IMG/VR virus record: IMGVR_UViG_3300028895_000257
Span: 1-31,515 of that record
Strand: one strand, 5' to 3'
Length of the DNA: 31,515 nt
Source: a virus
The stretch's first letter is position 1, and every line of letters begins with the position of its first letter. Positions 4,128-10,857 of the stretch are shown in pieces. The notes under the pieces are model-generated. The model saw nothing but the letters and a program-made list of their open reading frames with translations. It had not been told where the DNA came from and did not search any database. A program made the translations under genes and the position numbers.

Positions 4128-4778
4128 TCACGGCCCCACGGGATTCGACGCGGTCTGCCGGATGACGTCGGCGCCGTTGCCGTGTTGAATCCACTGCAGG
4201 GCGTTCTTCGCCTGCTCAGGTGTCAGGTCGGGAAGCTGGGGGCGGTCTCGGCGTCTGGCCCACACCGAGTACTGCTCCACGGTCACGCCGGCGTCGAGAA
4301 GCGCCTGCTTCACCTTGCGCGCCCAGGCGTCGGCCTCAGGGCGGATGTTCGACACGGGGCGCCGCTGCGGCTGGTGGCGGCTCGCCGCGTTGCCGTCGTC
4401 GTCGTCGACGGGCAGACCCAGAATGGACTGCGCAGCGTAGCGGCGAAGGTAGGTGATGGCGCTGCCGACGGCTTGTGCGTCGCCCTTCTTGCCGGGGAAG
4501 CACGCGGCGGTCGACGACAGCATCTGGCCGGAGCTGTGGGTGATGACGGTCGTGACCTGCACGAGCTCGTAGTCGAAGTGCGGAAGCTGCAACAGCGCCA
4601 GGCCGTGCTTGTTGAGTGCGGGCACGATGGCCTCGAGCACGGCCGACAGGCTCGCGTACTTGCTGCGGAAGTGCGGGTTCTTGCTGTCCTTCTTCGCGCT
4701 GCCCATGTCGGCCTGGGCGGCGGCGAGGGCCTTGAACAGCTCGGCACGGTCGTCGGTGAATGAGAAGAGGTTGAACAT
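4128..4778 (-). CDS. erf: ERF-family single-strand annealing recombinase
   Basis: This 216-aa protein is predicted to anneal complementary single strands in phage recombination. ERF hallmarks are present: NPHFRSKYASLSAVLEAI near residues 33-50, NKHGLALLQ, THSSGQMLSS, and the diagnostic AVGSAITYLRRYAAQSILGL block followed by the acidic DDDDGNAA. The C-terminal third (EADAWARKVKQALLDAG and TPEQAKNALQWI) is a helical extension, probably for partner contacts. ATG 4778 is the family-typical start (MFNLFSFTDDRAELFKAL); an upstream extension overlaps the primase-helicase coding end. Together with the RecE-like nuclease and SSB it forms a recombination module. Confidence 0.92.
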   Translation of the reverse strand: MFNLFSFTDDRAELFKALAAAQADMGSAKKDSKNPHFRSKYASLSAVLEAIVPALNKHGLALLQLPHFDYELVQVTTVITHSSGQMLSSTAACFPGKKGDAQAVGSAITYLRRYAAQSILGLPVDDDDGNAASRHQPQRRPVSNIRPEADAWARKVKQALLDAGVTVEQYSVWARRRDRPQLPDLTPEQAKNALQWIQHGNGADVIRQTASNPVGP

Positions 4779-4812
4779 GGCTTGCCCTGTTGTGTCGTGT
4801 TGTTGGAGTGTG

Positions 4813-7089
4813 TCAGGCGTTGGCCCAGACTTCGCGGAGAACCCGGCCCTTCGGGGCGCGGGAGAGAGTGTCGATGGCGTCGAGGCCGTTGCCCACACCG
4901 GTGGGCGGTTCGTCCTTGAGGTAGTAGGTGACGCCGTTGCTGCGCATCTTGGTGAACCCGCTGCGCTGCAAGGCGGCGGACAAAGTTAGTCCGCGTCCCT
5001 GGGGGTTCACGTCGCGGCCGATGGCAGCAGCAAATTCGCCGCAGGTGAAGCGGTTGTGGGCGCCGCCCTTGTTGTGCTGGTACGCCGTCATCGCGCACTG
5101 CGTGTACCAGTCCAGGTAGCGGAACTGCGCGTTGGTCTGTCGGCGCAGCTGCTCTTCCTTCGCGCACAGCCACCACTTCTCACCAGCTTGGTACGCCACC
5201 CTTGCCTCTGCAAGCAGCTGGTCGCGGTGCTTGTCGATGTAGTCGAGGTCGACGGGCTTGTTCCCGCAGGCGATGACCCAGTACCGACGGTCGCCCGTGC
5301 GGTCGCGGAGGAAGTCGCGCTCGTTGGTGGTGGCGACGATGACGGTGTGCCGACGGTACGTTCGCACCTTGCGGCCGAACGGGGGCCGCAGACGGTCGAC
5401 GCTCGAGGCGATGAAGGCCTTGCGGGTTTCCTGGTCGGCGGTGCTGCTCCCGGCGAGCTCGGCGTCTTCGTACAGCCAACAGCAGTAGAGCTGCAGGTAG
5501 CTGTCTTTGTCGCGCAGGTTCATTCGGGTGTCACTGAACAGCTCGCCTTCGAAGCCGGGCAGGTCGACCAGGCGGCGGAAGAGCTTGCTCTTGCCGATGC
5601 CTTGCCGCCCTTGCAGCGTCAGCACGGTGTCGACCTTGCAGCCGGGCTCGTACAGCCGCGCCATGAGCGACAGCAGGAAGCGGCGCCCGTAGGCGCGGTA
5701 GATGTGCAGGTCTTCGCAGCCGAGCGTCTCCACGAAGAGCGCCTCAATGCGGGGGCGGCCATCCCACTTGAGCCCGTCGATGTACTCGCGGAGAGGGTTG
5801 CGGGTGTGCTGCCGGGCGACGTACTCGATGGTGCTGTAGAGGCGCTCGCGGCCGACGTTCCAGTTCCAGCTGTACGCGCCTTCCATGTGAGCCATGACCT
5901 CAATCCAGGTCGTGTCGCAGACCGGTTCCTGCCCATTCATCTCGCGTTCGGCGAAGGCGTCGTACCAGAGGTCGAAGGTCGTGTCGTGTGTCAGCATTCG
6001 GGCGAGGTTGCTCACCGTGTTCGCCACGTCACCGAGCTCGCCCTTCTTCTTCGGCGGCTTGCGCACGAGCTCGGCGAGCCCGGAGACCGTCGGCGTGTTG
6101 TGGGTGTTCCAGTACGTCGAGGCGCTCGGCCCCGAGTAGTAGCGGGTTCGGCCGTCCAGCTCGCGAGCAAAGAAGCCCGAGCCGATGGTGCTCCCCCCGA
6201 AGGGGCACACGACCTTCAGGCGCTCACCCGGCCCAAGGCTGTCGACGAGGGCCTGCCAGCTCCTGCCGTCGGGCAGACGCTGCGCGCGGAAGTCGACCTC
6301 GACCGTACGGGACTGCCGGGGCTTCTTCTGCTTCGGGGCGATGTCGGCCGCGGCTGGAGCAGCCGGGGCGTGCTCGTCGACGAGCGTGGACAGGGCGTCC
6401 TGCAGTCGCACGAGGTCGGCACGCGACAACGCAGTCGGTGAGGAGGTGACGACCTCGACCTCGAGGTGTCGGCCTGCGGCCTTTCGGTTCACGCTTCCGG
6501 GCAGACGGCACAGGCGGGCGCCGACGTCGTGCGTGCGGTCGAAGGCCGAGGTGTACGAGGTGAGCGGGGGCTGCATGCCGTTCGCGAGCTCGGCGACCTG
6601 CAGGTTGACCTGGTCGACGATGGCAGCGTGCAGGGCTCGCAGGGCGACCTTCTCGCCGCCAACCTCTTCGGCCACTGCGTAGTGCACATGGAAGCCCCAG
6701 CCCGACATGAGCACGAGGCTCGGGGGGAGCCCCGTGACCGCCTCGAGCTGCGGCACGTACTCCTCGAGCATGAGCTTCAACAGGCTGTCGCGTGCCCTGT
6801 CGTCGAGGCGGTAGAGCCGGGCCTTGCGCTCCTGGGCACGAGCCTCGAGGACTCTGCCCCGAGACAGGCGGATGGCATCGTACAGCCCAAGCATGTCCAG
6901 GTCGAAGAAGAGCGACGTGACGCGCTCGCAGTTGTCGAAGGTGCGGCCCCGGCCCTTGTCGTCGACGGTGCCCTGCCGGAACATGCCGGTCGAGATGTAT
7001 TCGCCCCCGGGCAGAGTCTGCCGCACGTACTGCAGACCCTTCGGCGGTGTGGGCCACACAACTTGCACACGGGCGTCGATGGCTTTCAT
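4813..7089 (-). CDS. Primase-polymerase / SF3-type (VirE/D5-like) helicase fusion
   Basis: This 758-aa protein is the replication initiator-like enzyme. The N-terminal third has archaeo-eukaryotic primase motifs: FFDLD (61-65, the metal-binding Asp pair), SGWGFHVHY (129-137, with the catalytic His) and RLPGSVNRK (195-203). A linker rich in Ala, Pro and Lys follows (about 240-260). The C-terminal half is a helicase ATPase of the VirE/D5 group: WDGRPRIEALF (442-452), Walker A GRQGIGKSK (494-502), Walker B WLYEDAEL (538-545), ATTNE sensor (586-590) and GDRRYW arginine motif (599-604). It likely primes and unwinds phage DNA, with synthesis by host polymerase, since no DNA polymerase gene is present. 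ATG 7089 overlaps the upstream small membrane gene (ATGA). Confidence 0.93.
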   Translation of the reverse strand: MKAIDARVQVVWPTPPKGLQYVRQTLPGGEYISTGMFRQGTVDDKGRGRTFDNCERVTSLFFDLDMLGLYDAIRLSRGRVLEARAQERKARLYRLDDRARDSLLKLMLEEYVPQLEAVTGLPPSLVLMSGWGFHVHYAVAEEVGGEKVALRALHAAIVDQVNLQVAELANGMQPPLTSYTSAFDRTHDVGARLCRLPGSVNRKAAGRHLEVEVVTSSPTALSRADLVRLQDALSTLVDEHAPAAPAAADIAPKQKKPRQSRTVEVDFRAQRLPDGRSWQALVDSLGPGERLKVVCPFGGSTIGSGFFARELDGRTRYYSGPSASTYWNTHNTPTVSGLAELVRKPPKKKGELGDVANTVSNLARMLTHDTTFDLWYDAFAEREMNGQEPVCDTTWIEVMAHMEGAYSWNWNVGRERLYSTIEYVARQHTRNPLREYIDGLKWDGRPRIEALFVETLGCEDLHIYRAYGRRFLLSLMARLYEPGCKVDTVLTLQGRQGIGKSKLFRRLVDLPGFEGELFSDTRMNLRDKDSYLQLYCCWLYEDAELAGSSTADQETRKAFIASSVDRLRPPFGRKVRTYRRHTVIVATTNERDFLRDRTGDRRYWVIACGNKPVDLDYIDKHRDQLLAEARVAYQAGEKWWLCAKEEQLRRQTNAQFRYLDWYTQCAMTAYQHNKGGAHNRFTCGEFAAAIGRDVNPQGRGLTLSAALQRSGFTKMRSNGVTYYLKDEPPTGVGNGLDAIDTLSRAPKGRVLREVWANA

Positions 7090-7351: not shown

Positions 7352-7567
7352 TCAAGTGTAGGGGTCACGGACGACGGGCACGCCGTCTTCGAGCGTCGCC
7401 TTGCAGGCTTCGATGAGGCCCGCGGCTTGCTGGCGGCGCCGAAGGTCGTCGCGCACAAGCTCGTGAACGACCGTGTGCAGGTAGTCGGTCGTGGTCATGC
7501 CGGCGTGAGCTGCCGCGAGGCGGATGTCGCGGCCCATGTCTTCGTTCAGGATGGGTCGAAGTTGCAT
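7352..7567 (-). CDS. Small protein with ribbon-helix-helix-like pattern, 71 aa
   Basis: The product starts MQLRPILNEDMGRDIRLAAAHAGMTTTDYLHTVVHELVRDDLRRR. The short strand, helix, turn (GMTTTDYL), helix pattern resembles Arc/MetJ-type DNA-binding proteins, where a strand is followed by two helices and a basic end. This makes it the best local candidate for a regulator that could bind the repeated sites in the control region, but the match is by pattern only. ATG 7567 overlaps the upstream stop (TGATG). It belongs to the leftward early operon. Confidence 0.7.
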   Translation of the reverse strand: MQLRPILNEDMGRDIRLAAAHAGMTTTDYLHTVVHELVRDDLRRRQQAAGLIEACKATLEDGVPVVRDPYT

Positions 7568-8499: not shown

Positions 8500-8586
8500 T
8501 CATGGTTCGGTCACAGTTGTGTCATTGGCGAGACCATCCACACGCACGGCATTCTCGCTAACAGTCGTCGAGAATGCGCTATTCAT
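8500..8586 (-). CDS. Possible 28-aa leader peptide of the leftward transcript
   Basis: The ATG at 8586 is about 9 nt from the predicted leftward start site, in the same position relative to the promoter as ATG 8761 is to the rightward promoter. The first six codons give MNSAFS, while the rightward one gives MNTAFS. The peptide then reads TTVSENAVRVDGLANDTTVTEP and stops. The ribosome site is AGGGG only two bases from the ATG, which is poor. It could be a leader peptide or simply a by-product of a duplicated regulatory DNA element. Confidence 0.3.
   Translation of the reverse strand: MNSAFSTTVSENAVRVDGLANDTTVTEP
8549..8577. promoter_or_regulatory. Perfect 9-bp dyad (GCATTCTCG / CGAGAATGC)
   Basis: GCATTCTCG at 8549-8557 and CGAGAATGC at 8569-8577 are exact inverted copies separated by 11 nt. 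The whole dyad lies within the early transcribed region of the leftward promoter. A 9-11-9 dyad fits a dimeric operator or an RNA hairpin in the leader. The half-site recurs elsewhere in the control region (8619-8628, 8718-8726, 8771-8780). Confidence 0.6.
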
Positions 8587-8601
8587 CACCCCTGCACTGT
8601 C
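8567..8601 (-). repeat. Left arm of 35-nt inverted repeat at transcription start
   Basis: The sequence matches the reverse complement of 8746-8780 at 30 of 35 positions, with the core TATTCATCACCCCTG nearly identical. It starts right at the predicted leftward -10 box and covers the first ~35 nt of the leftward RNA. It therefore duplicates the initial transcribed sequence of the rightward promoter. Confidence 0.8.
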
Positions 8602-8629
8602 TTTTAGTGCTGGTCATCGGCGTTCTCAA
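8601..8629 (-). promoter_or_regulatory. Leftward sigma70-like promoter
   Basis: On the minus strand TTGAGA (8629-8624) is followed by 17 nt and then TAAAAG (8606-8601). The -35 box matches consensus at 5 of 6 positions and the -10 at 4 of 6. The predicted start is near 8594. It faces the leftward operon whose first likely gene starts at 8435, leaving a leader of ~160 nt. Confidence 0.55.
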
Positions 8630-8715
8630 CTTCACAGTGCAAGCCCCTCTTGTGAAAGTATTAGCCGGCAAAAAAACAACCACTTCTACTTTCGCGATTT
8701 AACCCTGCACTGTGT

Positions 8716-8745
8716 TTGCGAGAAGGTGCACTACCACGGTATAAT
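8716..8745 (+). promoter_or_regulatory. Rightward sigma70-like promoter
   Basis: TTGCGA (8716-8721) is followed by an 18-nt spacer and a perfect TATAAT (8740-8745). The predicted start is near 8752, so the leader to the first late gene is about 50 nt. Because the -10 is perfect and a host-type -35 is present, host RNA polymerase alone could use it. It overlaps a GAGAA-type site at 8718-8726. Confidence 0.7.
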
Positions 8746-8780
8746 GACAGTTCAGGGGTGATGAATACTGCGTTCTCGGC
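8746..8780 (+). repeat. Right arm of 35-nt inverted repeat at transcription start
   Basis: This is the partner of 8567-8601. It directly follows the TATAAT box and spans the first transcribed bases of the rightward operon, including ATG 8761, which is in frame with the first late gene. The five mismatches to the other arm include changes that keep the same or similar codon (GCA/GCG, AGC/ACT). Confidence 0.8.
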
Positions 8781-8799
8781 AATTCTGAATGGAGAGTTC

Positions 8800-9048
8800 A
8801 TGTCAGCGACCGACCACACGGGGCACACGATGTCAAGCGAGGAAATTGAACTCGCTCTTGCGAAGCTGGCACCAGACGCCATCGGGCTGCTCGAGGGTGT
8901 GCTGCGGGGCACGAAGCGGCCGAACAAGGCGCAGCTCGATGCGGCCTGGCGGGTGCTCGACGTCGCACGAGAAAGGAAAGCGCCAGAGGTCGAGACACCC
9001 GAGCTTGAGGAGCTGCGCAACGTGCTACGCTTGGTGGGTGACTCCTGA
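8800..9048 (+). CDS. Candidate small terminase subunit
   Basis: This 82-aa protein is the first gene of the late operon, two genes before the large terminase. The product is helical: SSEEIELALAKLAPDAIGLLEGVLRG, then NKAQLDAAWRVLDVARERK, a pattern (helix, helix ending in Ala-rich LDxA) resembling the core of small terminase proteins that recognise phage DNA. It is shorter than most and lacks an obvious helix-turn-helix, so the call is tentative. ATG 8800 has GGAGAG at ideal spacing; ATG 8761 in the same frame would add 13 residues (MNTAFSAILNGEF) but has a poor ribosome site. Confidence 0.55.
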   Translation: MSATDHTGHTMSSEEIELALAKLAPDAIGLLEGVLRGTKRPNKAQLDAAWRVLDVARERKAPEVETPELEELRNVLRLVGDS

Positions 9049-9070
9049 ACCACTGCACGGAGGGCAAGCC

Positions 9071-9313
9071 ATGCAGACGACGAAGACGGGGCTGCCGGTC
9101 GAGGTAGCGACACCATGGGCAAGGATGGGGGCAAGTTGGGCACGGACACTGCGCCGTCCGCTACTCGATGGGGAGTGCTACCCTTCGGGCGGTCGTTGGG
9201 CGTGGTCGGTGATGTGCCCCCTCACCTTGCAGCGCCTCGATGGGGGCGCGTGCGACACGTGTGAGGAGGCGAGGGCAGCAGTCGATGCCGCGCTCGAGGG
9301 TCTGGCGTGCTGA
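9071..9313 (+). CDS. Hypothetical protein, 80 aa
   Basis: No family is recognised. The start is supported by GGAGGG six bases upstream of ATG 9071, and the stop overlaps the GTG start of the large terminase. The product has a WARMGASWARTLRRP segment and, toward the end, CPLTLQRLDGGACDTCEEA with a C...CxxC arrangement that could bind zinc. Location between the candidate small terminase and the large terminase suggests a packaging or regulatory role, unproven. Confidence 0.65.
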   Translation: MQTTKTGLPVEVATPWARMGASWARTLRRPLLDGECYPSGGRWAWSVMCPLTLQRLDGGACDTCEEARAAVDAALEGLAC

Positions 9314-10857
9314 CCTTCGTGCCGCCGACGGTGCCCCCGGCACTGCGCGACCAAGTTGCCGAGCTCGTCAGGTCGCCCTCGACCTTCTGCCGCGTGCACA
9401 AAGTGCAGCACAAGGACAGCAAGCAGGAGATTGCGTTCGACCCTCTGCCGATGCAGACCAAGATCTTCGCGGCAGTCGAGGCAGGGCACAAGCGCATCGC
9501 GGCCATCAAGGCGCGCCAGGTCGCAGCGACGACAGCGTGCAAGTTCGTGCTTCACCAGCTGTGGACGTCGACGGAGACCGAGAGCATGCACGCGCTCGTG
9601 TCACTCCGGGCCGAGAGTGCGACGGCGCTGCTCGATGACCACCGGCGCTGGCTGCGCCACCCGCCGGCCCTGTTGCAGCGGGAGCTGGACACGCGGGCGA
9701 AGGGTGAGCTGCGCTACTCCGACACGGGGGCGAGCCTCAAGGCCTTCACCTCGAGGAGCCAGACCGGGCTGCGCTCGTTTGCCCCGACCGCTGCGCTGCT
9801 GTCCGAGTTCGCCTTCGCGCCTGACCAAGAGGAGCTGCTCGCGCAAGCGTTGGCGGCGGTCGGTGACGGGCTGCTCATGGTCGAGAGCACAGCCAACAAC
9901 CCCGGCGACGCCTTCTCGCGCATCATCGCGGGCGCTCCCGAGAACGGTTGGCACGTCATCACGCACTGGTGGTGGGAGCACCCGGCCTACTGCGACTCGG
10001 TGCCCGACGACTTCGAGCCAACCGAGGCCGAGCAGGAGCAGGCCGAGCGCTACGGGCTGTCGCTCGGGCAGCTCGTGTGGCGTCGCCGCTACCTCGCCAC
10101 CCTGGGCGAGCACAAATTCAAGCGGGAGTACCCTGGCTGCCTCGACGACTGCTTCCTCAACAGGAAGGGCGGATGGTTCGACGACCAGCTTCTGCAGGGT
10201 GTCCACGTCATCGACCATGCAGCGCTGTCGGACGGGGGCGGCCGAGAGATAGAGGCCCCGCACCCGCACGACCGCTACGTCATGGGCGTCGACGTCGGGG
10301 GCGGTGTCGGGGGGGACTACTCGGCGCTGTGCGTCGTGTCGGTGGCCACGCGTCAGCCGGTGTACGCCGAGCGCAGCAACCGGGCGACGCCGTCGAAGTG
10401 GGCGCACCGCGTCGTTCAGGTCGCGAGCCGGTACAACCAGGCGCTTGTACTCGCCGAGAGCAACAACCACGGGCACGCGCTGCTGCTTGAACTGAACACC
10501 TGCGGCTACCGGCAGCAGTGGCGGTCTCCGCAGGGGAAGCCGTGGGTGACGACGTTGCAGTCGAAGCTGGACGCCTTCGACACGCTGCGCGAGGCGATGC
10601 AGCAGATACAGGTCATGGACCGGCCGACATGGATGGAGCTGCGGGGGCTGACGGTCCCCGAGGGCAAGGTCGCCCCCGAGGCCCCGAAGGGCGCCCACGA
10701 TGACGCTGCGGTCGCAATCGCCCTTGCGTACCGGTGTCTTCGCGACATACCTGCAACTTGGCGCACAGCTGCGCTACAATCCCAGCGACACCGCATGAAC
10801 GACCTGATTGCCCGGAGCCGGGCACGTCGACTGCGGGCGAGCTCGCTGCCGTTCTGA
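9307..10857 (+). CDS. terL: Large terminase subunit (packaging ATPase-nuclease)
   Basis: This 516-aa motor pumps DNA into the prohead and cuts concatemers. The ATPase half shows the Walker-A-like KARQVAATT (68-76), Walker-B-like LLSEFAF (164-170) and coupling motif VESTANN (192-198). The RNase H-type nuclease half shows MGVDVGGG (Asp329), AESNNHG (Glu384) and AHDDAAVA with Asp465/Asp466. The GTG start at 9307 is chosen because GAGGG lies at good spacing and the frame begins MLTFVPP there; it overlaps the previous stop. Length is typical. The nearest packaging type (headful or cohesive/terminal repeat) cannot be read from the sequence alone. Confidence 0.95.
   Translation: MLTFVPPTVPPALRDQVAELVRSPSTFCRVHKVQHKDSKQEIAFDPLPMQTKIFAAVEAGHKRIAAIKARQVAATTACKFVLHQLWTSTETESMHALVSLRAESATALLDDHRRWLRHPPALLQRELDTRAKGELRYSDTGASLKAFTSRSQTGLRSFAPTAALLSEFAFAPDQEELLAQALAAVGDGLLMVESTANNPGDAFSRIIAGAPENGWHVITHWWWEHPAYCDSVPDDFEPTEAEQEQAERYGLSLGQLVWRRRYLATLGEHKFKREYPGCLDDCFLNRKGGWFDDQLLQGVHVIDHAALSDGGGREIEAPHPHDRYVMGVDVGGGVGGDYSALCVVSVATRQPVYAERSNRATPSKWAHRVVQVASRYNQALVLAESNNHGHALLLELNTCGYRQQWRSPQGKPWVTTLQSKLDAFDTLREAMQQIQVMDRPTWMELRGLTVPEGKVAPEAPKGAHDDAAVAIALAYRCLRDIPATWRTAALQSQRHRMNDLIARSRARRLRASSLPF
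10751..10780 (+). promoter_or_regulatory. Possible internal promoter before the portal gene
   Basis: Near the end of the terminase gene, CTGCAA (10751-10756), an 18-nt spacer and TACAAT (10775-10780) form a weak -35 and a good -10. It would give extra transcripts for portal onward. Confidence is low because of the poor -35. Confidence 0.3.

Follow-up and report, generated by a model that had tools for sequence, protein, structure and literature searches.

A mirror-symmetric region of four predicted operator sites between the divergent operons of an uncultivated phage

The window analysed in this study was the whole of IMG/VR record IMGVR_UViG_3300028895_000257, which represents 31,515 b of DNA from an uncultivated phage with a GC content of 66.7%. 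A control region, with 45–48% GC compared to 67% in the genome, separated leftward replication and recombination genes from rightward packaging and structural genes. The leftward genes encoded SSB, an exonuclease, a RuvC-like protein, ERF and a VapE-like helicase/primase (4813–7089, minus strand), along with several small ORFs. The rightward operon began with an 82-aa gene (8800–9048, plus strand), which is a candidate small terminase by its position alone. It also encoded the terminase large subunit, TerL (9307–10,857, plus strand), and the portal, major head and tail proteins. Judged by this gene content, the leftward block would be early and the rightward block late in time. The proteins scanned, which represented part of the ORFs, included no recognisable integrase or immunity repressor. 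The 82-aa gene and TerL were separated by a small ORF (9060–9313, plus strand) that resembled by eye the small left-operon ORFs of the related loci L041 and L065.

Two inverted arms, one in the left part of the control region (8567–8601, minus strand) and one in the right part (8746–8780, plus strand), had been reported in the first-pass annotation to match at 30 of 35 positions, and these arms proved to be real. The sequences between 8569 and 8604 and between 8743 and 8778 were inverted copies of each other, identical at 31/36 positions (86%, E 7e-7 within the genome). The ungapped mirror score was 21, which made this the best inverted repeat within about 500 nt, and the maximum found in 30 shuffles was 11. 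Alignment of the region with its own reverse complement, allowing gaps, gave a score of 54 compared to 25 or less in 200 shuffles; as this exceeded all of the shuffles, the region between 8567 and 8780 is mirror-built along its entire length. At the left edge of the left arm there was also a perfect 9-nt inverted repeat, GCATTCTCG...CGAGAATGC (8549–8577), which belonged to a group of GCRTTCTCG-like copies at 8549, 8569, 8620 and 8770.

Two more mirrored sites, at 8634–8641 and 8706–8713, were present within the gap between the arms, and the unit is one of four sites rather than two arms. The outer-left predicted operator half-site (8593–8600, minus strand) was ACAGTGCA and lay within the left arm, 41 nt from the inner-left half-site (8634–8641, plus strand), which had the same sequence, as did the inner-right half-site (8706–8713, minus strand). 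The outer-right half-site (8747–8754, plus strand) was ACAGTTCA, which carries 1 mismatch, and was located immediately past the -10 box, 41 nt from the inner-right site. Each arm was composed of its outer site and an extension, which was GGGGTGATGAATAGCGCATTCTCGACG in the left arm and GGGGTGATGAATACTGCGTTCTCGGC in the right arm. Allowing no more than one mismatch, 16 copies of ACAGTGCA were found in the genome, 4 of them in the control region. These four copies formed two inverted pairs, each with a spacing of exactly 41 nt, and were the sole such pairs in the genome. Each pair bracketed a promoter position such that the inner site was upstream of the -35 box and the outer site followed the -10 box.

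Relatives were recovered by searching with TerL (17 loci) and with the 82-aa ORF (47 loci). Mirrored arms recurred among these relatives, and the paired element, which the first-pass annotation had proposed to look for in related phages, was retained as a mirrored quadruple in all clades except one, with a motif and spacing that differed by clade. The window clade had the motif ACAGTGCA with a left/right spacing of 41/41, although the outer-left site was degenerate in L022 and L023. Clade L038–L061 had GTGCAGGG with a spacing of 36/36, the outer sites of L054 being degenerate, whilst clade L027–L032 had AGTGCAGGGT with a spacing of 46–48/46 and 10-nt copies repeated in tandem at its inner sites. 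The motif of clade L062–L066 was GGGACGGGT and its spacing was 46/45. The remaining clade (L034–L037, L042 and L043) showed no mirror clearly above chance, with gapped scores mostly in the shuffle range.

The left and right halves of the region matched within a clade and differed between clades. This was seen in a block-wise alignment of the left and right modules by clade, where the mean score was 28.8 for own halves and 13.7 for all other pairings. It was also seen in 10 phages of the 36-nt clade, where the match of each outer site with its own partner gave a score of 239 compared to a maximum of 236 in 20,000 permutations (p 5e-5). Additionally, 22 of the 28 exact GTGCAGGGT copies in five near-full-length relatives fell in the control region. 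Duplicates free of constraint would lose their match as they change, and the same factor therefore most likely reads both sides; this is the pattern to be expected of operators that share one protein. Such co-variation of the sites in relatives gives good support to the earlier suggestion that both operons are switched together via a shared DNA-binding target.

Each arm had also been described as starting at the -10 box of its own promoter, the two promoters being mirror images, and this description held only in part, for the right side in the window clade. The rightward sigma70-like promoter TTGCGA-18-TATAAT (8716–8745, plus strand), located between the inner-right and outer-right sites, was the only consensus promoter match between 6500 and 11,000, and 0/60 shuffles contained one as good. 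Its TATAAT was kept in the window clade, and TACAAT was present in L063 and L066. The possible leftward promoter TTGAGA-17-TAAAAG (8601–8629, minus strand) was present as described, yet it was weak, being equalled or bettered by 5/60 shuffles, and it was not conserved. The left side of the relatives rarely scored above shuffles and a canonical leftward promoter was absent from most of them. The 36-nt clade, which is the largest, had no sigma70-like promoter on the left or on the right, and several clades had none on either side. Relatives that kept the promoters and lost the arms had been named as the case that would overturn the first proposal; what the relatives revealed was the reverse, with sites that were conserved and promoters that were not. 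By this comparison the mirror resides in the predicted protein-binding sites and not in the sigma70 promoters.

A 71-aa ribbon-helix-helix-like (RHH) protein encoded in the leftward operon (7352–7567, minus strand) was identified as the candidate regulator. The family was present in 29 of the 30 left flanks read, including that of the window, and the exception, L042, has a short flank. The gene was also found in 7/7 near-full-length records tested, and in those members of the clade without a mirror that had a long enough flank (L036, L043 and the record of L037). Alignment of the family showed an RHH-like pattern, and relatives weakly matched HicB, NikA, ParD, ParG and TacA (TacA1), with a best Pfam E of 4e-4; the window protein itself did not match RHH families. 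An AlphaFold model of the candidate (mean pLDDT 80) contained helices at residues 9–21 and 26–58; the model was of a monomer, and the N-terminal strand would form only in a dimer. Most Foldseek matches of the candidate were RHH proteins (KacA, Arc, AtaR and PutA), all with E > 0.1 and the best with E 0.5, and a PDB sequence search with the RHH alignment returned chance-level matches only. These lines of evidence on the fold are individually weak and all point to RHH, and are consistent with, rather than conclusive for, an RHH identity. The 7352–7567 protein is the best candidate for binding the sites. Co-variation between the protein and the sites is suggestive only, as operator type and protein type both follow phylogeny.

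A DNA search of the control region in the phage collection gave no match, and the TerL matches in this collection all had <30% identity. In the host search, no relative of the 82-aa protein was found in the genome collection. One TerL relative, L068 (64% over 352 aa), was located in a Gemmatimonadota MAG chromosome; neither the control region nor a recognisable RHH gene was present in the 17 kb seen, and Gemmatimonadota as host is only a hint. In the relative L006, a gene resembling a DNA cytosine methyltransferase was found between the 82-aa ORF and TerL, at about 4180–5000. In the near-full-length relatives, which were records of 30.0–30.7 kb, the distance between the control region and the contig ends differed greatly, and this variation suggests that their genomes are circularly permuted, near-complete and about 30 kb long.

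We consider it probable that an operator region with mirror symmetry is common to the two divergent operons and that the arms are its outer halves; through this region one phage protein would control both operons. On each side, an inverted pair of sites would bracket the promoter place, with the outer site at about the transcription start. A small protein of the leftward operon, most likely the RHH-like protein encoded at 7352–7567, would bind all four sites, and both operons would thereby be controlled at once. In the simplest form this protein would act as a repressor: bound at the outer sites, which overlap the starts, it would block transcription in both directions, and it would limit its own synthesis by feedback on the leftward operon. 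Binding of this protein to the sites, a repressing rather than an activating effect and the timing of its action in infection are inferred. As most relatives were without a canonical leftward promoter, a leftward sigma70 promoter as the target of repression is no more than a possibility. A more detailed version of this reading is put forward tentatively: an inverted operator pair, with a spacing that matches between the sides and is specific to the clade, may bracket each divergent promoter, a single RHH protein of very small size may bridge or loop each promoter and so couple both operons, and the operators on both sides may evolve in concert with the protein.

The main rival is a phi29-like switch, in which binding of one regulator to the shared sites would silence leftward transcription and activate the rightward operon, producing an early-to-late order instead of equal repression. 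The genome layout is the same as that of phi29, where four p4 sites are located between divergent early and late promoters (PMC3100819), and each inner site is immediately 5′ of the -35 box, which is the usual position of an activator. The lack of a consensus sigma70 promoter on either side in several clades would also fit activator dependence, and AmrZ is an example of an RHH protein able both to repress and to activate (PMC3325190). However, halves that are built alike and equally spaced predict the same effect on both sides, and an outer site that overlaps the transcription start is in the usual position of a repressor; we regard this switch as rather unlikely. A replication origin, in which the four inverted sites would serve as iterons for an initiator, with DNA unwinding in the AT-rich stretch that they surround and a secondary role for the promoters, appears less likely again. 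It would agree with the low GC content of the region (45–48% in a 67% GC genome), with the strongly AT-rich centre and tandem 9–10 nt site copies at the inner positions in several relatives, and with the replication genes that adjoin the control region. AT-richness is common to promoter regions anyway, however, what the sites bracket is the promoter positions and not just the AT-rich centre, and the strong promoter is conserved in the window clade.

The arms had further been proposed to be a duplicated RNA leader, that is, an antitermination, pausing or translation-start element common to both transcripts. In the window both arms would be at a transcript 5′-end, and in each of them AGGGGTGATGAAT leads into an open frame. 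The predicted 5′-ends folded no better than shuffles, though, and gave no Rfam match, and neither the start codon (the ATG of the arms) nor the frame was conserved. The ATGAATAGCG block followed the outer site in the window clade but preceded it in other clades, and the inner sites, which would be outside either outward transcript, were also conserved. A leader of this kind is very improbable, and its antitermination or pausing form finds no support in these results. Read outward, both arms (8761–8800 and 8504–8587) carry AGGGGTGATGAAT and would encode MN(S/T)AFS. A shared translation start with this sequence was considered and rejected; in the window it shared the reading frame of the 82-aa gene, yet other clades did not conserve it. 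Mirrored arms could, finally, arise by chance or by a recent inverted duplication without function. The mirrors persist in relatives with TerL down to 64% identical, with the left and right sides changing in concert in both motif and spacing, which refutes this as a full account and leaves it a negligible probability.

With the shared operator region as the preferred reading, the control region can serve as a regulatory landmark in a group of uncultivated phages of ~30 kb without a close relative in the phage collection searched. Its relatives form a natural evolution series in which one divergent control region occurs in four or more motif/spacing classes, and the candidate regulator is merely about 60–70 residues long. 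This opens RHH site specificity, and the re-wiring of several operators at once by a phage, to direct testing.

No paper describing this layout was found in the open-access literature searched, and the layout represents a variation on divergent control regions already known from phages. In lambda, the same kind of operator is used at the leftward promoter (oL) and the rightward promoter (oR), and the region described here is similar in having one kind of predicted operator on its leftward and rightward sides. Unlike this region, oL and oR are kilobases apart, each have three sites, are bound by the helix-turn-helix proteins CI and Cro, and serve lysogeny. The likeness to Arc and Mnt of P22 is that the candidate regulator is a small phage RHH-like protein, and its structural matches include Arc; there is no sequence-level membership, however, and the operons here are those of replication and of packaging and structure, not an immunity region. 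In the A2c/A2b-A3 region of phi29, four sites for the phage-encoded early protein p4 are located between divergent early and late operons (PMC3100819). The present region likewise has four mirrored, predicted regulator sites between divergent operons, whose early and late timing is judged from gene content. The p4 protein is an N-hook protein that recognises CTTTTT-15-AAAATG and works with p6, whereas the candidate here is RHH-like by prediction and would not be a p4-type regulator; the site sequences also differ, and the present region has on either side an inverted pair whose members match and are equally spaced. The likeness to phi29 is one of how the region would work and not of membership.
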